Shown piece after piece: positions 8,403 through 25,290 of a stretch of 26,023 nucleotides of DNA. A model generated the notes under the pieces. It saw nothing but the letters and a program-made list of their open reading frames with translations, was not told the origin of the DNA and did not search any database. Source of the DNA: Spirogloea muscicola. Taxonomy: Eukaryota; Streptophyta; Zygnematophyceae; Spirogloeales; Spirogloeaceae. The number at the start of each line of letters is the position of its first letter. Position 1 is the first letter of the stretch. Both the position numbers and the translations under genes were made by a program. The stretch spans positions 64,972 to 90,994 of the forward strand of contig WELB01000170.1 in NCBI GenBank assembly GCA_009602725.1. The letters run 5' to 3'.

Positions 8403-8751
8403 TTCACCTCCCCGCCGCCACTTACTCCGTGCCACCGTCATGAGAAACAGCGCTTCAGCTCCCCAATAGCCGGGGGCACTTGGCTGCTGTATACACCCAG
8501 CTTCTGGGTTCCCTGTACCCTTTGTGCTTGCCTTCGCACTTGGCCCGTGAGGCCCTCCATCACTCGATACACGCTGCAGTTCTAGCTCGTCCTTCCTTGC
8601 GGCCCTTCGCCGCTGCCGCCGCCGCCGCCACCGCGTTCGCTGCTCCCGCTGATCTTGGCTGGGAGCCCTGCCGAAGCGGCGGCTGCAGACACCACTGCCT
8701 GTGTGCCCAGCTTCTGCGCCGGGCCCTGCAGAACGGCACACTACGTTGGCG

Positions 8752-10532
8752 ATGGCCGCCGTGCCGACATCGTCCGGCCGCGCCGTCGTTGCAGTGGTGG
8801 TGGACAAGGACAGCGGCGCCAGCCAGGCTGCGCTGACCTGGGCGCTCACCCACCTGGCCAATGGCGGCGGCTCCGAGCTCGTGCTCCTGCACATCATCAC
8901 CCGCGTGCCCAACCCAAGTCCGGCCCTTGCTCCCTCCCTCCACCTCCCCCACCTCCCTGCCACCATCTCCTCGCTCCACCCCCTCCCCCCTCCTCCTCTC
9001 TCTTCATCTTGCCAGCCACCATATCGCCCAGCTCTGGGGTACTGTCTCTGCCGCTGCCAAACGAGCTGCAGCTCCAGTCTCCCCCTCCTTCTGCGCGAAC
9101 CTGTGCGCCCCCCCCNCCCCCCTCCCTCCCCCCCTCTCTAACCCCAACATGAACCACTTCTCCTACCACCTCACTGCCTGCTTCGAGTGCGGGGCAAGAC
9201 ACTGCAGTGGCCTCTGCTCCTCTGATTCGCTTTGGCGCGCCGCTTAAGAACCTCGGCCGCCGCTGCTCGCAGCCAGCAGGTCGCTGCGAGCATGACCGCA
9301 ACAACCCACCCAAAGCTACTGCAGCCTCCACCACATTCTTCCCTCGCCCCTGCCTTAGCCCTTCCTGCCAGAGCCTTTCTCCTCCCACCCTCCTCTTCAC
9401 TTTTCTGATCGAAGCCCCTCCCTCCCTCTCTCCTTGTTGATCGCAGTCGGCACATATGACTCCGTTAGTGAGTCGAAACGGCTGATCCTGGACGGCCACG
9501 TGCGCTTCAAGGTGCGGCCCTTCTTGGAAAAGCATGCGGCCTTCTGCCGCGGCCGTGGTGCTGGGGCTTCGGCACCCACCATCACCATCCGCATCGGCGA
9601 GAACGACTGCGCCATCACTGGGGTCATCGCAGAGGCCGCCGCAGCTGGCGCTACAGCGCTCGTTGTGTCGCGCCCCACCAGCATTTTCGGCAGGTGCGGC
9701 ATCTGGCCGCTTGCTTGCGCTTTCATGGCGCTATGCAGGCTGTGGCGACCTTGGTTACTGGAACCGGGCCACAGTTGCTTGCCCTCACCTCACACCTGCC
9801 ACCATTGCACGACGTGCAGCGGCAAGACCCTGGGCCCACTGGCGACCCAATGTCGCAAGTGCCTGCCACCAGGCTGCACGCTCTTCGTAGTCGCGAAAGG
9901 CCGCCTTGTGCACCAGGAGGCCGCAACTTGCAGCGAGCTTGTCATCTCTGCCCCCAAGAGTACTGTGTTCCGGACCTGTGGTGCGTTGGTCTTTCCCTTC
10001 AACCATTTTTCCCTCTTCTCTTCCCTCCCTCCTCCCTGATGTCCATCTCCTTCATGCTTCTTCACGTGGCAGGGCATCATGCTTCCCGCAGCTCATAGTC
10101 TGTGCGCCCTGCTAACATGCTGTCCCCTCCTTCCGCTGCACTTGTGCAGACTCCCCAACCACGGCACTGTCGCCACCGTTGTCCGTGTGTTCGACGCCAC
10201 AGCACACCAGCAAGATCGCGCCCTCCCTCAGTGCCTCAGACATTCCCCTGCTATCCGTCGTCTCCATCTCCTCCTCCTCCATCTCCTCATCCGCTTCTAC
10301 CTCTTCCCTCTCCCCAACCTCCTCACTCTGCTCCACGCCGTCGTGGCGGTCAGCCCCAGATTCCAGGCCTGCTCGGGTGAGCCGAGACGGGACCATGGGA
10401 AATGACGAGGATGATGAGAGCACAATACGTATCTTGCTGGGGAGGACCTCGTTGCTCTCCCTCGTCCGTGATGCCAGCCCCGACGACATCCTCAAGGGCC
10501 CCGCTGATGAGCTCTGGTGCACGCCTCACTGA
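8752..10532 (+). CDS. Universal stress protein (USP)-like domain protein with Ser-rich tail
   Basis: Proposed exons: 8752–8917, 9447–9693, 9820–9980, 10150–10532. Exon 1 starts at ATG and reads AVVAVVVDKDSGASQAALTW, then ELVLLHIITRVPNP, the first strand-helix-strand of a USP fold. Exon 2 has SESKRLILDGHV, a ITIRIGENDCAITGVIAEA stretch and ATALVVSRPTSIFG. Exon 3 has QCRKCLPPGCTLFVVAKGRL. This is the order found in the USP domain of plant USP/U-box receptor-like kinases, which bind nucleotide in some members. The usual G-x2-G-x9-G-S/T loop is not clearly kept. The last exon is Ser-rich, then acidic (NDEDDEST), ending WCTPH-stop; no kinase domain is seen. An alternative splice at the strong donor CGG|GTGAGC (10377) to 10584 would replace the end with a Pro-rich tail ending at 10775. 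The 529-nt first intron is very pyrimidine-rich and holds the N near 9116. Confidence 0.65.
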
Positions 10533-11316: not shown

Positions 11317-14300
11317 TCATGTGCTGTTAGATGGCTCTGTTGCTAGTGTTGATGGATTGGTGATGTTGATGTTGCAATTAATTAAGAGAGGGCCGTCAAG
11401 GTCCAGATCTGCCGCCTTCATGGCCGCCTCAAGTTCCTGCAAGCAAATAATATTTGTTTGAAGGCATGCTACTTGATGATCAGACTTCTTGTTGCAGGCC
11501 TGAAGCTTGCACTGATTGAAACGGTCTTCTGACATAAGTAGACTCTGTGACCACCTCCCCGGCAAGCGCCTCTTGAGGTTGTCAATGGAATAGTGAAACG
11601 AGAAGCTTGACTTGAAGGTATGATAAATAAAGAAAGCAGAATCTTGACCTGCTAGCTTCCCAAGCAGGATATAGCCTCATGAAGGACTCTCAAGACTGAA
11701 TGAAGGGCAGATTTGCTTCTGAGGTCCTTCTGTAGTAGGTGTACATTTCACGAATGTGGCAGAAGTAAGCGTGCTAGGGGACTTATCATACCTTCTGTTC
11801 TGTCACATGGAAAGCTTTGCTGGTGCAGTGCTCCGTGCACAGTACCTCAATCAGCTTGTGATTCTGCCAGCTTGCGCAGCTGAGATGCAAAGGAAGGCCT
11901 TCGCTTCTGGGTGCACGTGACCCAGTGTTCAGCACGAGTATGATGGGTTTGACACCAAGTCTCATCGCCGTTGAAAGCTCCTGATGAACATCACGCTATG
12001 AAGTTAGAAGAGTGGTGCAGAGTGATAGCGTACGTGTATGCGAGCATTGCATAGTCAATGTGATCACAATAGCCCTAAATAAGGAGTCAAGCCAAGCAGC
12101 TCAGCATGGCTCCCTACAGCATAAAGTTCAAGACCAAGTGTGTTCTACATTTGTCTTAAACAACTCATTTGCCAATGATCCTTAACATGGATACTCACTC
12201 ACAGATAATTTGGTCAATCGCACCTGGGCAGTCATTTGGAATGAATGTTCGTTGATGACTGACACAAACCTGCGGCCAGGCCTGCTCACTGCCATGCCCA
12301 GCGTGGCTGGCAGCGACCAGCCCATGGCCATGTGCACAGATTGGACCTGCAGACTGCCTTGCAGCGTAGCATGTCAGCAGCATTGCATACGAATCTGATA
12401 TAGTAGCTGCAAAACTGCTGGCTTTTTCACTTACGTAGCCCCTGCTGGCAATTTGAGAGACAGGGCACTGATGAGGAAGTCGCCAAAGTCAGTCACCAGA
12501 GTGGTATTGCTTGTGAGAAGGTCCTGCGGCATGGCAAGCGGTACAGCAAAATGAGATGCATTCATACACAATGCCTTACCACTGGTGGGAATGGCATTAG
12601 GTAAAGGGTCGTACACGCTCGTTCGGCAACGCTAGTAAGCAGAACTTCAGTATGTTAACATGGTCACTGGTAGTATATGCTTGAGGATATAGACTTGTGT
12701 AATGGGCTTGAGGTCCAGCTCCAATCGGTGTTGATCAGTCGTGACATACAATTTCGCGATAACGTTTAGCATTTCGTTGGCTGTTGCAGGGCTTTAAGTA
12801 CCTGAACTGCTGTCTTCACCAAAGAGTATGTAAGCAGCTCAGTCTGGGGCTTCCTAGCTGGGTCGACCACTACTGGCATCTCGGTCGTGGGTGTACCAAG
12901 ACGTACTGCATTTGGGTGAGGAATCTGAGCTAATTCCGTCTCAGCTGCTGAGTGTACCTCTAGGACTACTGGTGGCACCAGCAGCTCCTTGTCCTCTCCT
13001 TCGGCACATTCTTCTGACCCAAGTGGTATATCTTCCGAATTACCTGCAATATCACCTGCAACACCTCCTGCTTCTATATGAGAGCCTTTGACGTCCTTGT
13101 TGAGACTTCTTGAGGGGCTGCCCATGTAGAGGGGGAAGCTGTCCCGTTGCGGGAGGTCGTCAACGCAAACGAGCTCCTCGCTGCTGTACCCGTCATCTAG
13201 GCCATAACCAGAGGCTGCTCTTGCACGCACTTCGGCGCACCGAGGGTCCTCCCCTTCTTCTTCTTCTTCCGCACACTCCAGTCCTTCCTCGTGGGTAAGC
13301 AGGAGCTTTCTTGCGTGCGTGCTCTCACTCGTCTTCTCTTTCACATCATGCAACTGCAGGTTGGTGATTGTGCTCAGCAAGTTGACAGTATAAAATTGTT
13401 CCTGCTTGATACATCTGCTGAAGCCACTGAAAGCTCTGATTATGTTATATGATGGGTTGAGATGCTCACTTTTTCGGCCAGCAAACCCAGGAAGTCCACC
13501 ATGCATACAGCTGGATATTCGCAGTCTGGCAGTTTGACAGCATCAGGCATCACCTAGGAGCACAAAGCAAGGTCCACAGGTCAAAAGGACAGTCCTTTTC
13601 ACTGTTGCTATTGACTGTGGGAAAGGCATGCAAGAAACTCCAGACTAGTAAGGCTGCTGCTACATCCAACATATGTCGGTGAAACGTCGACCAGCGTTTG
13701 ACCGTAGAAATTGCGCCACTGTTCAGACGTAGCATTTCTATACGCAATTCCTCCTGCACCTTGGCTGACTAATGCGCCGATGCATGTGGCATACCTGGAT
13801 GAGTCTATGTGAACTCCAAGGCAGGGAATATTGAAACGTTGAGAGGTCAATTGAATATGGTCCAACCGCCATTGCTGCGTCTGCTTCTTCAACGACCTGG
13901 CGACATGATGGGGGAACGGAGACCTGTAGTAACAGCAGCCGCTAGCAAGTGTCAGATGTAGCTTGCTGGTACATAATTTGCAGCTAAAGAATCAAGTAAC
14001 CAAACCAGATATATGATGCGAGATAGAGTACATCTGCATGATGTATCGGGACTTCTCACATGCCCCATATAGGTCCCGGCGAAAGCAGGGTGGTCCTCTT
14101 GGAACAAGCCCTTGGCATCAAAGGTCACTGCCAGCTTGCAGCCCAGAGCTTCTGCTACGTCGGCAAGTGCAGTCTGTACTGGAACAATTTCTGCCCTCGC
14201 CTTCGGTCCTACGAGCAGCACAGGGTGCCGCTGCAAGACAAGGGCATCAGCAGTGCATCTATGATGGCAGAGTCTAGCATAAGCTTTGCTGCGAGTTAGC

Positions 14301-15938
14301 GACAGCCGCTTCCTGGTCACCTACAGTCGGCAAGTGTACACAATGGAATCAACACAACTTTCGGAGTAATCTGCAGGTATGTGGATTTGGATGCAAATTT
14401 GCATCGGGCGTCATGCTTCATCACAACCTGAAATCAGTTTCTTGCTCACAGATTGTTTGAGAAGGTGCGCAGCAGAGGAAGCAGCTGCCTCCAGGTTGGG
14501 GGGATGACTAGGAACAACAATGGGAGACGCTAGAGCTGCTGGCCTTCTAGCTGCTGAGGAAGCGACGTCCTCACAGACCTCAATCAACACAGGCTTGGAA
14601 CTTGTGCGCATGCATAGCAGTGCCCTGCTCAAATTTCAAAACGTCAACATTTCTGTCAAAACTTATGGTACGCCGCGTTCATGCCACTGAGCACAAGTTT
14701 GACGCACTAGGTAAGCAGTAATCTGTTTCAAGATGCTTGACAAATGAGGTTGATTGCGCATGAGGAAGATGAGTTACCATCCACAAGGCTTCAGCAATGG
14801 AGCTGAAGTACAGTAGTAAGGTTCCCATGGCTGCAGAGATGGATTGTATCTAAGTATGGCGTTCTACTCAGCTCTTCAAGAAGGGCGTGCAGTTGGGAAA
14901 GATGACCAACACGGACCTGTCAATCAGTTGAGGTGCCGCACCAACCTCACGAAGCTGAACAGCATCACATGTTACTTCTTTATACATCCGGAATGCCTGA
15001 CACTTGTCCGTCTCACCCGTTGTATTGGGTAGGATCTTTGTGCTTGCTGCAAGATAGCTATATGATGCTCAGATGGTTCAACACTGACCAGGGTTTTCAT
15101 CCAACAACCAAGCCGTCATTCAGGTGCTCGATATTATAAGAACTTGCAGGCTTAGGCGTCAGGCGCATTGAGATCGCTCACCCAGGTCTTCGCTGGAAGG
15201 TGCTGCAGTGAGCAGAATGATTTGCAGATTGTGGGCATAGGCGCCAGCAATGGCATTCAGTGCGCTGACACTGCCCGTGCCATATGTAACACACATTGCG
15301 CCAACCCCCCCCATTCGAGCATAGCCATCGCTGAAGTAGCCCGCATTGAGCTCGTTGCAGCAGCTGCATGGAGTCCAGTCAAGAATGCAGTGACTTCGGC
15401 ACCAAAGGCAGAGCTAGGCGGCAATTGCTACGGACTTCTGGCATCTATGGGGCTGTGTTAATGCGATAACATGTATCAAAATGCAAAAGTCGCGTGAGTT
15501 CCAACTTTGATACATCAAAAGAATGCAGTTACCACTTCTTCCTTCAGTCATGCTCTTACTTGATGAACTGCAGCTTTTCATTCCTTGCTAGCTGGTCCAT
15601 GCCAAGACAATATCCAGCATGAGCAGACCACTGTGCAGCAGTAAACGTGCGCGGAAAGAGTCTTCTCCATCTCGACTGTGCTGGCAAATATTTCCAAATC
15701 TGAAGCTGCGCCAGAGGCGTGGGCAGGCTCATACCTGGTTAAGGAGGGGAAGCGAGTAGCCGCTGGGCACCACAAAGACGTGGCCCACTTTTGCTTCCAC
15801 CAGGCGTGCTGAAATATACGTTCCCACAGTCCACCGCGGGCCATCACCAGGTGCCGCAGGTATACCGAGCCATGCTCCCTTCTCATTTGAACCTTGCTCG
15901 ACAGCTAGCGGCTCAAGCATATCGGTTGAGATGGTCAT
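11317..15938 (-). CDS. Pyruvate decarboxylase-like protein, 13 exons, probable pseudoenzyme
   Basis: Exons in transcription order: 15938–15735, 15591–15560, 15363–15182, 15046–14917, 14624–14450, 14230–14060, 13923–13795, 13553–13470, 13353–12802, 12523–12435, 12353–12224, 11980–11792, 11436–11317. All junctions are GT–AG with consistent phase and give 728 residues. Homology to PDC is collinear: TVGTYISARLVEAKVGHVFV, CCNELNAGY, YGTGSVSALNAIAGAY, FRMYKEVTC, SSKPVLIEV, PVLLVGPKARA, DAKGLFQEDHPAFAGTYMG, QVVEEADAAMAVGP, GWSLPATLG, SFQMTAQELSTAM. Working enzymes decarboxylate pyruvate with ThDP/Mg in the cytosol. Here only the cofactor-activating Glu (in NELNAGY) survives. The GDFN Asp, the His-His pair, the GDG…NN metal-binding motif and the GYTIE Glu are all substituted. 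Exon 9 adds a roughly 150-residue acidic insertion between the central and C-terminal domains. The start is the first in-frame ATG; an upstream 5' exon is possible because GTGCAG precedes it. Confidence 0.88.
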
Positions 15939-20939: not shown

Positions 20940-23422
20940 GTGTATTAGAAAGAAATGTAGGCCAAATGGCCAGGTACAAAGGCAAGCACATCTAAAAATC
21001 TACATAACCAACAGCAGATTGACCCGCTCAATAACCACGGGTCAAAACATAAAGGTCACTACTCGATGCATGAATACTAGATGCCAGGAACGGAGCCCTT
21101 CTGCCACCTACTAGAGCTCGCCCAGCTTTCTGGTGCAAGGCACTAGCCTGAGCACGCTGCAAACAGGCCGAAACTCGACGTCGCAAGAGCGACAGATATG
21201 CAGCTGGCAAGCCCATCTCAGCCGGAAACACATCTGCGCGTCGAGTGTAGCCTAGATTGGCAATGTTTTGAAGCAGAGTGTGGAAGCGAGGACCCAGACA
21301 GCCAAAGATGTCGATTGCAGCTGGCAGGAGTTGATCGCATTGGGGGTAATCGGAGTAATGCCGCAGTTTTCTTTGCTCTGCTCCGCCCACTGCGTGCCCA
21401 GCAATGTGTGTTGATGCTGGGCCTTTATATGCCTCCGTAACAACAACGTCGACCAGGGCCCGTGGTCCTCCACCAGGTTGCACGCCCACAATGTCAAGTG
21501 TGCGGCGATGATGACGTCCCTGGGCGTCCGTGGTGATAGGCATGATATTGTTGACTTCCACGACCGCACGGTAGCCGGCGTCGCGCATCAAGCCCGCCAG
21601 GGCATCGCGAAGGAGGTTGTGAATGCCCACCACTTCTGGTCCAGTGGGGCATCTCAGCATGTGAGTGGCGAGCACAGCACCCTCTGCACGGAAGCCGCAC
21701 TCGCACTGGCGCACCCCAATCAGGCAATTAGGTGGGAGGCCGAGGAAGAGTTGAAGCGATGTCCGAAAGGCCTCGGAGCTGATGCTGAAGGCGTTGGCGA
21801 CGGGGGGAGAGGTGATCCAGTCAGTGGCACCAGGTGTGGCCAGAGAAGTGAGTCTTGCCAAGCTCCTCGGATTGTTCTGAATCTCTGGCAGCCTCCTCAA
21901 CCTTCTGCGGCGTTCGTCTTCCACTGCCGTAACCAGTCTGGATTGTGCCCCTCTATCAGAAGCTTGGGCGAGGGTGGAGAATGGCGTGAGTAGGGGTTGG
22001 AGAGAGGGGAAAGAGCTGATGGCTGAGTCGCGGATGCTCCTCAGATCCGCTTGGAAGGGGAAGGAGCCTTCCTCCACATTGCGTACAGGGTCGTGGAGGC
22101 AAGGGAAGCGCATGGGGAGCAGGGAGGCGATCTGGTGCCAGCAGCCCAGGAAGGCTGCTTGCGCCGTCTGCTCCAACGACCGGCAGCCAAGGCCGCCCAT
22201 GCGAGTAGGGAGGGAGGCCTGGAGGGAAGCTGAAGCTGAGGGGAAAGATGAAGAATGTAGTAGGGCTGCCAGGGACTGCTGAAGGGAGTCATCATATTCC
22301 TTGTAGAGCTCCGCCACCATGCCCAATGGGGCAACTGTCCGTTGCAGATAGCAAGCCCGTTGGCCGATGCAGCGGGTGAGGATGGCCAACGCCAGCTGCG
22401 TGTCCCCAAGGAGGGGAAGGGAAGGGAGGGGGGCGAGGTGTTTTTGAAGGCGTTCCCGCAAGTCCACCGCCACGTGAGCTGGTGTACCGAAGGGGACCTT
22501 GAGGATGGCCAGCCCATTGGCAGGGGTCTGACAGCCGTGGGGGAGCTGAAGGTTGGCAGGGAGACCGCGTGGGGACCAGGCCACGCTCTTGGACGGGCAA
22601 ACCCGCAGGCCCATCAGGTCCAATTCGCGAACGAGCAAGGGGTAAGCCGCCATGACTTCAGCTGGAGGTCCAATGATGTGTGTGTCATCCGCGTAGGAAG
22701 GGAAGAGGAGGTATGGGTGTTGGCTCTGGGTGCGCCGAATAGCCCGGCAATGTGCCAATGCAAACAGGATTGGGCTAAGGGGATCCCCCTGGCGTGTGCC
22801 AGAAGATGACCACAGCGTCTTCCACGACTCTCCTGCTTGCCACAGCAGCCGCCCTGGGCGTCCATAGGCCATGAGGAAAAAGGGTATAAGGGAAGGGAAG
22901 TGGTCGCGCAGCTCCTCCATAATGACGCTGCGCTCCACTGTATTAAAGGCGTTAGTGATATCCAGCCCAAGGACCATCATTGAAGGGTCCACATCGAGAG
23001 CGGCACGGATGCCGTGGATGAGGGCCTCCGCCCCGCAGGACATGCCAGCACCAAATTGGTGGGGTGATAGATGGCTGGTCAGCTGGGGTTTCAGCTCGCT
23101 GCACACGGCCTTTGATACCAGCCGCATGACAACCTCCGTCATCGCAATGGGTCTCACTCCGCCTGTTGGCTTTGCAAGGGCTAGCAGGTGGCTGGAGTTT
23201 AAGGCATCAGCAATGCGTGGTGGAATGGCAGCCCTGGCGATGTGCCGGCAGGTGGACAGGAACAGGGAGAAGCTCCTCTCATCCCCATCAAGAAATAGGT
23301 CCTGTAGGTGCTCAAAGAGCCATCCAGAAGGGCCTCCAGACACCAGAGGGCGGTGGCCTTATTCCGATTTGCATCTACTGAGGAGAGGGTCACTAAGAGC
23401 CCCCTTGCTGCCGTAGCACTTC
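20940..23422 (-). mobile_element. 5'-truncated LINE retrotransposon with open RT ORF
   Basis: The element runs on the minus strand from a MITE-interrupted 5' side (about 23422) to a 3' end near 20940 marked TAATACAC, without a poly-A tail. The 3' UTR (about 20940–21027) is shared with the plus-strand copy ending near 25289. The open frame and the close similarity of the two copies point to recent activity of the family. Anything upstream of the RT domain is missing. Confidence 0.85.
21028..23343 (-). CDS. LINE reverse transcriptase with C-terminal CCHC motif and putative nuclease
   Basis: Open frame of 771 codons, lacking a normal ATG start because the element is truncated at the 5' side (reading continues to a TAA about 20 bases upstream of the GTG at 23343). 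RT motifs are all present: GPSGW at the front (5–8), KPTGGVRPIAM (58–68), LGLDITNAFNTV with Asp128, RQGDPLSPILF (184–194) and the YADD active site (217–220). After a long linker, residues 547–565 form C-x-C-x11-H-x3-C, and 612–638 read RRTLDIVGVQ…ALVDVVVTEA, a D-x14-D-V-x-V arrangement like the PD-(D/E)xK restriction-like nuclease of R2/CRE/NeSL-type LINEs. The protein would copy its RNA by target-primed reverse transcription. The C-terminus SSSDLYVLTRGY is the signature seen in the many fragments nearby. Clade assignment is inference. Confidence 0.9.
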   Translation of the reverse strand: MSGGPSGWLFEHLQDLFLDGDERSFSLFLSTCRHIARAAIPPRIADALNSSHLLALAKPTGGVRPIAMTEVVMRLVSKAVCSELKPQLTSHLSPHQFGAGMSCGAEALIHGIRAALDVDPSMMVLGLDITNAFNTVERSVIMEELRDHFPSLIPFFLMAYGRPGRLLWQAGESWKTLWSSSGTRQGDPLSPILFALAHCRAIRRTQSQHPYLLFPSYADDTHIIGPPAEVMAAYPLLVRELDLMGLRVCPSKSVAWSPRGLPANLQLPHGCQTPANGLAILKVPFGTPAHVAVDLRERLQKHLAPLPSLPLLGDTQLALAILTRCIGQRACYLQRTVAPLGMVAELYKEYDDSLQQSLAALLHSSSFPSASASLQASLPTRMGGLGCRSLEQTAQAAFLGCWHQIASLLPMRFPCLHDPVRNVEEGSFPFQADLRSIRDSAISSFPSLQPLLTPFSTLAQASDRGAQSRLVTAVEDERRRRLRRLPEIQNNPRSLARLTSLATPGATDWITSPPVANAFSISSEAFRTSLQLFLGLPPNCLIGVRQCECGFRAEGAVLATHMLRCPTGPEVVGIHNLLRDALAGLMRDAGYRAVVEVNNIMPITTDAQGRHHRRTLDIVGVQPGGGPRALVDVVVTEAYKGPASTHIAGHAVGGAEQRKLRHYSDYPQCDQLLPAAIDIFGCLGPRFHTLLQNIANLGYTRRADVFPAEMGLPAAYLSLLRRRVSACLQRAQASALHQKAGRALVGGRRAPFLASSIHASSSDLYVLTRGY

Positions 23423-23812: not shown

Positions 23813-25290
23813 TTCTCTTCCCCTCCTCGGGGACACGCAGCTGGCGTTGGCCATCCTCACCCGCTGCATCGGCCAACGGGCTTGCTATCTGCAACGGACA
23901 GTCGCCCCATTGGGCATGGTGTTGGAGCTCTAAAAGGAATACGATGACTCCCTTCAGCAGTCCCTGGCATCCCTACTACATTCTTCATCTTTCCCCTCAG
24001 CTTCAGCTTCCCTCCAGGCCTCCCTCCCTACTCGCATGGGCGGCCTTGGCTGCCGGTCTGTGGAGCAGACGGCGCAAGCAGCCTGCCTGGGCTGCTGGCA
24101 CCAGATCGCCTCCCTGCTCCCCATACGCTTCCCTTGCCTCCACGACCCTGTACGCAATGTGGAGGAAGGCTCCTTCCCCTTCCAAGCGGATCTGAGGAGC
24201 ATCCGCAACTCAGCCATCAGCTCTTTCCCCTCTCTCCAACCCCTACTCACGCCATTCTCCGCCATCGCCCAAGCTTCTGATAGAGGGGCACAATCCAGAC
24301 TGGTTATGGCAGTGGAAGACGATCGCCGCAGAAGGTTGAGGAGGCTGCCAGAGATTCAGAACAATCCAAGGAGCTTGGCAAGACTCACTTCTCTGGCCAC
24401 ACCTGGTGCCACTGACTGGATCACCTCTCCCCCCGTCGCCAACGCCTTCAGCATCAGCTCCGAGGCCTTTCGGACATCGCTTCAACTCTTCCTCGGCCTC
24501 CCACCTAATTGCCTGATTGCGGTGCGCCAGTGCGAGTGCGGCTTCCGTGCAGAGGGTGCTGTGCTCGCCACTCACATGCTGAGATGCCCCACTGGACCAG
24601 AAGTGGTGGGCATTCACAACCTCCTTCGCGATGCCCTGGCGGGCTTGATGGGCGACGCCGGCTACCGTGCGGTCGTGGAAGTCAACAACTTTATGCCTAT
24701 CACCACGGACGCCCAGGGACGTCATCATCGCCGCACACTTGACATTGTGGGCGTGCAACCTGGTGGAGGACCACGGGCCCTGGTCGACGTTGTTGTTACG
24801 GAGGCAGAAAGGCCCAGCATCGACACACATCGCTGGGCACGCAGTGGGCGGCGCAGAACAAAGAAAACTGCGGCATTACTCCGATTACCCTCAATGCGAT
24901 CAGCTCCTGCCAGCGGCAATCGACATCTTTGGCTGTCTGGGTCCTCGTTTCCACACTCTCCTGCAAAATGTCGCCAATCTAGGCTACACTCGACGTGCAG
25001 ATGTGTTTCCGGCTGAGATGGGCTTGCCAGCTGCCTATCTGTCACTCTTGCGACGACGAGTTTCGGCGTGTTTGCAGCGTGCTCAGGCTAGTGCCTTGCA
25101 CCAGAAAGCTGGGCGAGCTCTAGTTGGTGGCAGAAGGGCTCCGTTTCTGACATCTGGTATTCATGCATCGAGTAGTGACCTTTATGTTTTGACCCGTGGT
25201 CTGGTCATTCTGCTGTAGGTTATGTAGATCTTTAGATGTGCTTGCCTTCGTACTTGGCCATTTGGCCTACATTTCTTTCTAATACACGGA
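23813..25290 (+). mobile_element. 5'-truncated LINE copy, inverted relative to the intact one
   Basis: Starts inside the post-RT linker (GGGGACACGCAGCTGGCG at 23830, equal to the minus-strand copy near 22410) and runs to the shared 3' end TAATACAC near 25289. It is non-functional. An in-frame TAA replaces the Tyr codon of ELYKEY near 23932. A two-base loss at about 24806 (GAGGCAGAAAGG against GAGGCATATAAAGG) shifts frame just after the DVVVTEA motif. A small deletion removes the Tyr-stop of the C-terminus near 25198, so that frame runs on to a TAG at 25218. The long remaining frames (24036–25016 and 24667–25218) retain the CECGFR…H…C motif. It is highly similar to the intact copy. Confidence 0.85.

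Follow-up and report, generated by a model that had tools for sequence, protein, structure and literature searches.

To our knowledge, the nearest precedent for a relative of pyruvate decarboxylase (PDC) that has turned non-enzymatic is Thi3 of yeast; TSB-like and PDX1.2 belong to other enzymes, tryptophan synthase and vitamin B6 synthesis respectively, and are not known to be PDC relatives. Excerpts from the relevant articles describe Thi3 as a PDC-related protein (PMC10246790) that has a regulatory function together with Pdc2 and Thi2 (PMC10246790, PMC4299793), TSB-like as a non-catalytic plant paralogue of the active subunit TSB which allosterically activates its partner (PMC12727527), and PDX1.2 as a non-catalytic plant pseudoenzyme that regulates the synthesis of vitamin B6 (PMC6829848). 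A search of the literature turned up no article that brings together PDC, pseudoenzymes and thiamine, which does not prove that such a protein has gone unreported, and the excerpts at hand of two further articles mention only ordinary algal PDC (PMC12924338, PMC9637915). Here we describe a PDC-like gene of Spirogloea muscicola, found in a stretch of 26,023 nucleotides (contig WELB01000170.1, positions 64,972 to 90,994; hereafter the window). With a probability of about one half, we see in it a retained non-catalytic descendant of PDC whose most likely role is that of a partner, in assembly or allostery, to canonical PDC or to another thiamine diphosphate (ThDP) enzyme.

The gene is read on the minus strand, from 15938 to 11317. 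Its model, built by comparison alone, comprises 13 exons, totalling 2187 bases, that encode 728 amino acids and close with a single terminal stop; all 12 introns of the window copy are bounded by GT–AG. Kinship with PDC was judged from the sequence. The product displays the Pfam domains TPP_enzyme_N, TPP_enzyme_M and TPP_enzyme_C in that order, which is that of an active PDC, each above cut-off. Its top match among solved structures is 5npu_A (2.3e-94; its name is given only as ANC27), and bacterial PDCs follow from 6.6e-84 on, the first of them being 2vbi_A, a pyruvate decarboxylase (6.6e-84). A preliminary description of this DNA had claimed a full-length collinear PDC homologue of 13 exons with consistent GT–AG junctions, and this is indeed what we find.

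The cofactor pocket was read from 26 aligned rows (three copies of the gene, namely that of the window and those labelled C148 and C59, together with canonical algal PDC and 22 other members of the family), using Zymomonas PDC numbering and comparing motifs within the aligned rows; the role of each pocket position is the one that we take the PDC literature to assign to it. In the copies, D27 is replaced by Gly, H113 by Pro, H114 by Asn, D440 by Glu, G441 by His, N467 by Thr and G469 by Ser, while G439 has become Asn (Asp in C148) and E473 Arg (Ser in C148). All three retain E50, T72, D390, S442 and N466. The 23 other rows show no variation at D27, E50, T72, H113, H114, G439, D440, G441 or N467; at E473, 21 of them have Glu. 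Set against what is expected of an active PDC, the ThDP-activating Glu, E50, is thus present; the catalytic D27, H113, H114 and E473 are found as G, P, N and R/S, and the metal and diphosphate motif GDG...NN is largely lost, with Glu at D440, Thr at N467 and the flanking glycines replaced. Window-copy motifs read VPSGYS, ILPNTTG, INEHS and LNTGSRAPR, with CCNELNAGY intact, as the preliminary description had written them; its statement that only the Glu of CCNELNAGY remains was too strong, T72, D390, S442 and N466 being kept as well. The C148 copy has slightly different motifs (PSGDS, CCTELNAGY, DEHS and APSREG).

None of the three copies retains the catalytic Asp, either His, the second Glu or the metal-binding Asn, so that normal PDC chemistry is not to be expected of this protein. 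When the columns that are invariant in 10 rows of the PDC clade are considered, the three copies keep 3 of 17 pocket or catalytic positions as against 50 of 95 others (Fisher p = 0.0086), a p-value that is only indicative because the list of pocket positions, though written before the count, came after the replacements had been seen. The 21 listed pocket sites are identical among the three copies except at G439 (N/D) and E473 (R/S). The protein also carries an insert of 165 amino acids (residues 371–535, in exon 9) between the central and PP domains, hydrophilic and with a net charge of −24, a feature on which the preliminary description is silent; the 184-residue product of exon 9 had no match in the genome beyond the three copies of this gene (E up to 1).

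A 58-residue exon query matched the 153-Mb genome in five places: its own site in the window, C148 and C59 (97% each), and C105 and C82 (46–48%). C148 and C59 align with the window over the gene as well as over its flanking DNA, in pieces of 82–95% identity (85–86% for the long ones), and are therefore syntenic copies, be they haplotypes or homoeologues. With exon limits carried over to C148 and C59 from the window copy by alignment, all three retain the 13 exons, the splice dinucleotides (12/12 GT–AG), the frame and one terminal stop. Matches to other ThDP enzymes likewise fall into groups of three or four with similar scores; this grouping, together with that of the PDC-like gene, suggests a triploid or three-haplotype assembly. 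Canonical PDC turned up in only two copies.

The amino acid sequence of the PDC-like gene is under purifying selection, looser than that of canonical PDC. The three pairs of copies have ratios of nonsynonymous to synonymous substitution rates (dN/dS) of 0.292, 0.292 and 0.293 (bootstrap intervals within 0.21–0.40; Fisher p from 8.5e-16 to 6.0e-15 against equal rates), none of them near 1. For comparison, the canonical pair C105/C82 gives a dN/dS of 0.048 at a dS of 0.187 (interval 0.018–0.087; 436 codons, of which a few at exon borders may be intronic), and an acyl-CoA ligase open reading frame (ORF) used as a control gives 0.103 (235 codons). Introns have diverged by 0.183–0.205 in the three pairs, about as much as synonymous sites (dS 0.185–0.200). 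No exon indel breaks the frame (3, 3 and 6 bases in one pair, 3, 3 and 3 in another, 3 and 6 in the last); intron indels number 41, 35 and 48, and 38, 30 and 41 of these have lengths not divisible by three, counts that leave out an insertion of about 1.3 kb cut before alignment. This insertion lies in the last intron of the C59 copy, before the last exon, and has no counterpart in the window and C148 copies.

Two rival readings may be set against these figures. The first, a decaying pseudogene in which stops have not yet accumulated, might draw on a dN/dS above that of the canonical gene (0.29 vs 0.048) and on the relaxed PP domain. Against it stand a dN/dS that in each of the three pairs lies significantly below 1, introns that have diverged by 0.18–0.205 with many frame-breaking indels whereas exons have none, and 12/12 splice pairs in each copy; averaged over the time since the three copies split, dN/dS and indel pattern contradict it, and we consider it very improbable. 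In the second, the gene model would be an artefact, and alternative exons would bring the catalytic motifs back. The model is comparative only, which leaves room for the idea, but the predicted exons show a synonymous excess and no frame-breaking indel, and in the gene region of the three copies the three forward frames contain no string of the GDFN/GDYN, GDGS/GDGA, GYTIE or NNxGY type, only two stray ‘LHH’. With dN/dS, indels and motif scan all contradicting it, an artefact is scarcely credible.

Constraint is not evenly spread along the protein. Regional dN/dS is 0.06–0.17 in the N-terminal extension (35 codons), 0.13–0.16 in the PYR domain, 0.18–0.27 in the central domain, 0.39–0.42 in the acidic insert and 0.35–0.54 in the PP domain with its tail. 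Synonymous and nonsynonymous changes counted on a star tree amount to 27.5:13.5 for PYR and 25:41 for PP (Fisher p = 0.0055). Among the three domains, PYR is the most constrained and PP the least. This pattern matters for the possibility that the protein has been neofunctionalized: without recourse to ThDP, its fold would now serve some other reaction or ligand, and the remodelled pocket (P-N, E-H-S, T-G-S-R) would be conserved because something else binds there. The replaced pocket residues are mostly identical in the three copies at a dS of about 0.19, and E50, T72, D390 and S442 are kept, as such a view would have it; but the PP domain, which would house the greater part of such a new pocket, is among the least constrained parts, and inspection, by eye only, recognized no new catalytic motif. 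We therefore regard neofunctionalization as rather unlikely.

The genome is not short of the normal enzyme. Exon pieces on C105 and C82 each carry PGDFN, CCNELNAGYAADGYAR, ILHHTIG, GDGSFQ and NNGGYTIE, which makes at least two canonical PDC genes whose motifs are intact. A 100-residue query found only C105 and C82 at 98–100%, with six weaker places at 35–44%. When 12 loci were searched with Acetobacter PDC, three matched (L009, L011 and L012) at E up to 0.01 and nine did not. A genome search for the ThDP family gave 15 N-domain matches, five of which are the PDC-type places (window, C148, C59, C105 and C82); among the others, a fragment on C7 resembles oxalyl-CoA decarboxylase and one on C36 resembles acetolactate synthase, matches on C4, C1, C3 and C61 score similarly to these two, and further ones fall on C16, C223 and C345. 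The C7 fragment, near 751000–753000, has an acyl-CoA ligase ORF close by on the same strand, with which it forms a possible oxalate-degradation pair; at the C4 locus there is a ligase ORF 94% identical to that of C7. With canonical PDC on C105 and C82, catalysis is provided for, and the pseudoenzyme has a possible partner.

As to origin, the tree of the 26 rows places the trio within the PDC group (13 rows, support 99/98) and outside canonical algal and bacterial PDC (10 rows, 98/96), at the end of a stem of 2.02 changes per column; grouping the trio with canonical C105 is rejected (approximately unbiased test, p = 0.0164). Gene structure tells another story. Two intron positions, one following LLxQ in phase 0 and one following LPxGx in phase 2, are common to the pseudoenzyme and the canonical gene (locus L011) when read by eye, and the chance of sharing two or more is 0.0013–0.0030, assuming 8–12 canonical introns. 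They suggest common eukaryotic descent, contrary to the tree. The explanation that we favour, without taking it as settled, is an old eukaryotic duplication which would have been followed by fast divergence, the tree being distorted by long-branch error. Searches were also made further afield: a scan of contigs found 27 stretches fitting a pattern, with three distant bacterial loci, a viral scan gave one fitting stretch and no confirmed relative, 18 of 398 Pseudomonadota genomes had a match at 1e-35 or better (28–37% identity), and 258 plasmid records had a match, the best among the matches listed being 37.7% identical (Granulicella).

What, then, might such a protein do? As regards PDC chemistry it is very probably a retained pseudoenzyme, to judge from its sequence. 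The preliminary description had proposed as much, noting the lack of stops and frameshifts, and this part of its proposal is supported: each of the three copies has one terminal stop, exon indels are of 3 or 6 bases only, dN/dS is well below 1 over three copies in which the substitutions are shared, the genome holds a canonical PDC besides, and no forward frame of the gene region restores the motifs. This dead version of PDC probably does some other, perhaps regulatory, job. That it is a partner of active PDC, which the preliminary description had floated (as a regulatory or structural partner) beside a new function, we propose tentatively. The PDC fold would be kept, at least in the PYR and central domains, and the protein would act by binding instead of catalysis, its partner being the cell's own canonical PDC or another ThDP enzyme, upon which it might exert an assembly or allosteric effect; the acidic insert could be a regulatory or docking element. 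In ThDP enzymes, each cofactor site is formed between two subunits, one contributing its PYR domain and the other its PP domain, and in view of this cross-subunit contact the stronger constraint on PYR than on PP would be in keeping with a protein that docks to an intact partner. One may push the idea further and imagine the protein as a ‘half-site’ regulatory subunit that pairs with canonical PDC in mixed dimers, although we hold this to be a long shot: the constrained PYR domain of the pseudoenzyme, with the cofactor-activating E50 kept, would complete the cofactor site of the active partner's PP domain, minus D27, H113 and H114, while its own PP domain could not hold ThDP, so that the second site would be silenced, and fermentative flux would be tuned via subunit mixing, gated through the acidic insert.

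Several observations weigh against our main reading, that of a retained partner. Pseudoenzyme and canonical PDC share 36.5% identity over 433 positions, which makes mixed oligomers uncertain. With a dN/dS about six times the 0.048 of canonical PDC, constraint is weaker, in the PP domain (0.35–0.54) especially. The replacement of D440 by Glu is conservative, so that metal binding is not strictly excluded. No orthologue was found beyond this genome in the collections searched, which were viral and prokaryotic. Finally, PDX1.2 is dispensable for viability according to the excerpt at hand (PMC6829848), so that not even a fitting precedent has to be essential.

Table 1. The PDC-like gene and its exons, in window coordinates.
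Feature	Position	Strand	Basis or content
PDC-like pseudoenzyme gene, 13 exons, 728 aa	11317..15938	−	Exon structure, GT–AG, PDC-family homology
Exon 1	15735..15938	−	N-terminal extension, PYR domain start; D27 position (residue 60, 15761–15759) = Gly
Exon 2	15560..15591	−	
Exon 3	15182..15363	−	CCNELNAGY; E50 position (residue 83) = Glu in 3/3 copies
Exon 4	14917..15046	−	H113–H114 positions (residues 146–147, 15029–15024) = Pro-Asn
Exon 5	14450..14624	−	PYR domain end, linker, central domain start
Exon 6	14060..14230	−	Central (R) domain
Exon 7	13795..13923	−	Central domain
Exon 8	13470..13553	−	Central domain end
Exon 9	12802..13353	−	Acidic insert (residues 371–535), PP domain start
Exon 10	12435..12523	−	PP domain; T388 position = Phe, D390 kept
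Exon 11	12224..12353	−	GDGS replaced by NEHS (DEHS in C148); D440 metal position = Glu (12250–12248)
Exon 12	11792..11980	−	N467 = Thr (11926–11924), G469 = Ser, E473 = Arg (Ser in C148)
Exon 13	11317..11436	−	C-terminus and stop

Elsewhere in the window, a reverse transcriptase domain (RVT_1, 4.7e-17) marks a long open frame (21028–23358, minus strand) as a probable retroelement, and an ORF at 23934–25016 (plus strand) has peptide strings near-identical to the C-terminal part of that frame, in inverted orientation. Two exon-like ORFs lie on the plus strand, one at 316–699 with a histidine phosphatase domain (7.4e-11), the other at 8653–9138 with a weak match to universal stress protein (3.5e-4, below cut-off).

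It remains to compare this gene with what is described elsewhere. A sensor or transcriptional co-regulator in the manner of Thi3, that is, a PDC relative that helps to regulate genes of carbon or thiamine metabolism, would have the yeast protein as its precedent, and the acidic insert could serve as an interaction segment. However, an excerpt on Thi3 places thiamine pyrophosphate (TPP) in its pseudo active site (PMC10246790), whereas here the metal and ThDP motif is largely gone, E50 being kept, and among eight ORFs of the window scanned with Pfam, three matched and none belonged to a thiamine-pathway family. We deem such a role improbable. The likeness to Thi3, drawn from descriptions, lies in the relation to PDC; the regulatory role is that of Thi3 (PMC10246790, PMC4299793). 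With TSB-like and PDX1.2, as their excerpts describe them, the protein has its predicted non-catalytic nature in common, but activation of a partner, reported for TSB-like (PMC12727527), would only be surmised for the PDC pseudoenzyme. Plant and bacterial PDC (EC 4.1.1.1) share with it the collinear three-domain architecture, E50 in CCNELNAGY, T72, D390 and the central domain, and differ in having D27, H113, H114, E473, N467 and the GDG turn, all replaced here, where the 165-residue acidic insert and the stem of 2.02 are added. As for the alga's own PDC on C105 and C82, domain order and apparently two intron positions are the same, and only those canonical copies retain PGDFN, ILHHTIG, GDGSFQ and NNGGYTIE. 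Catalytic residues and most cofactor anchors have thus been dismantled, yet three copies, with a new acidic insert, are under selection beside the normal enzyme; if active PDC is what they bind, they would offer a handle on the way algae control the branch leading from pyruvate to acetaldehyde and ethanol.

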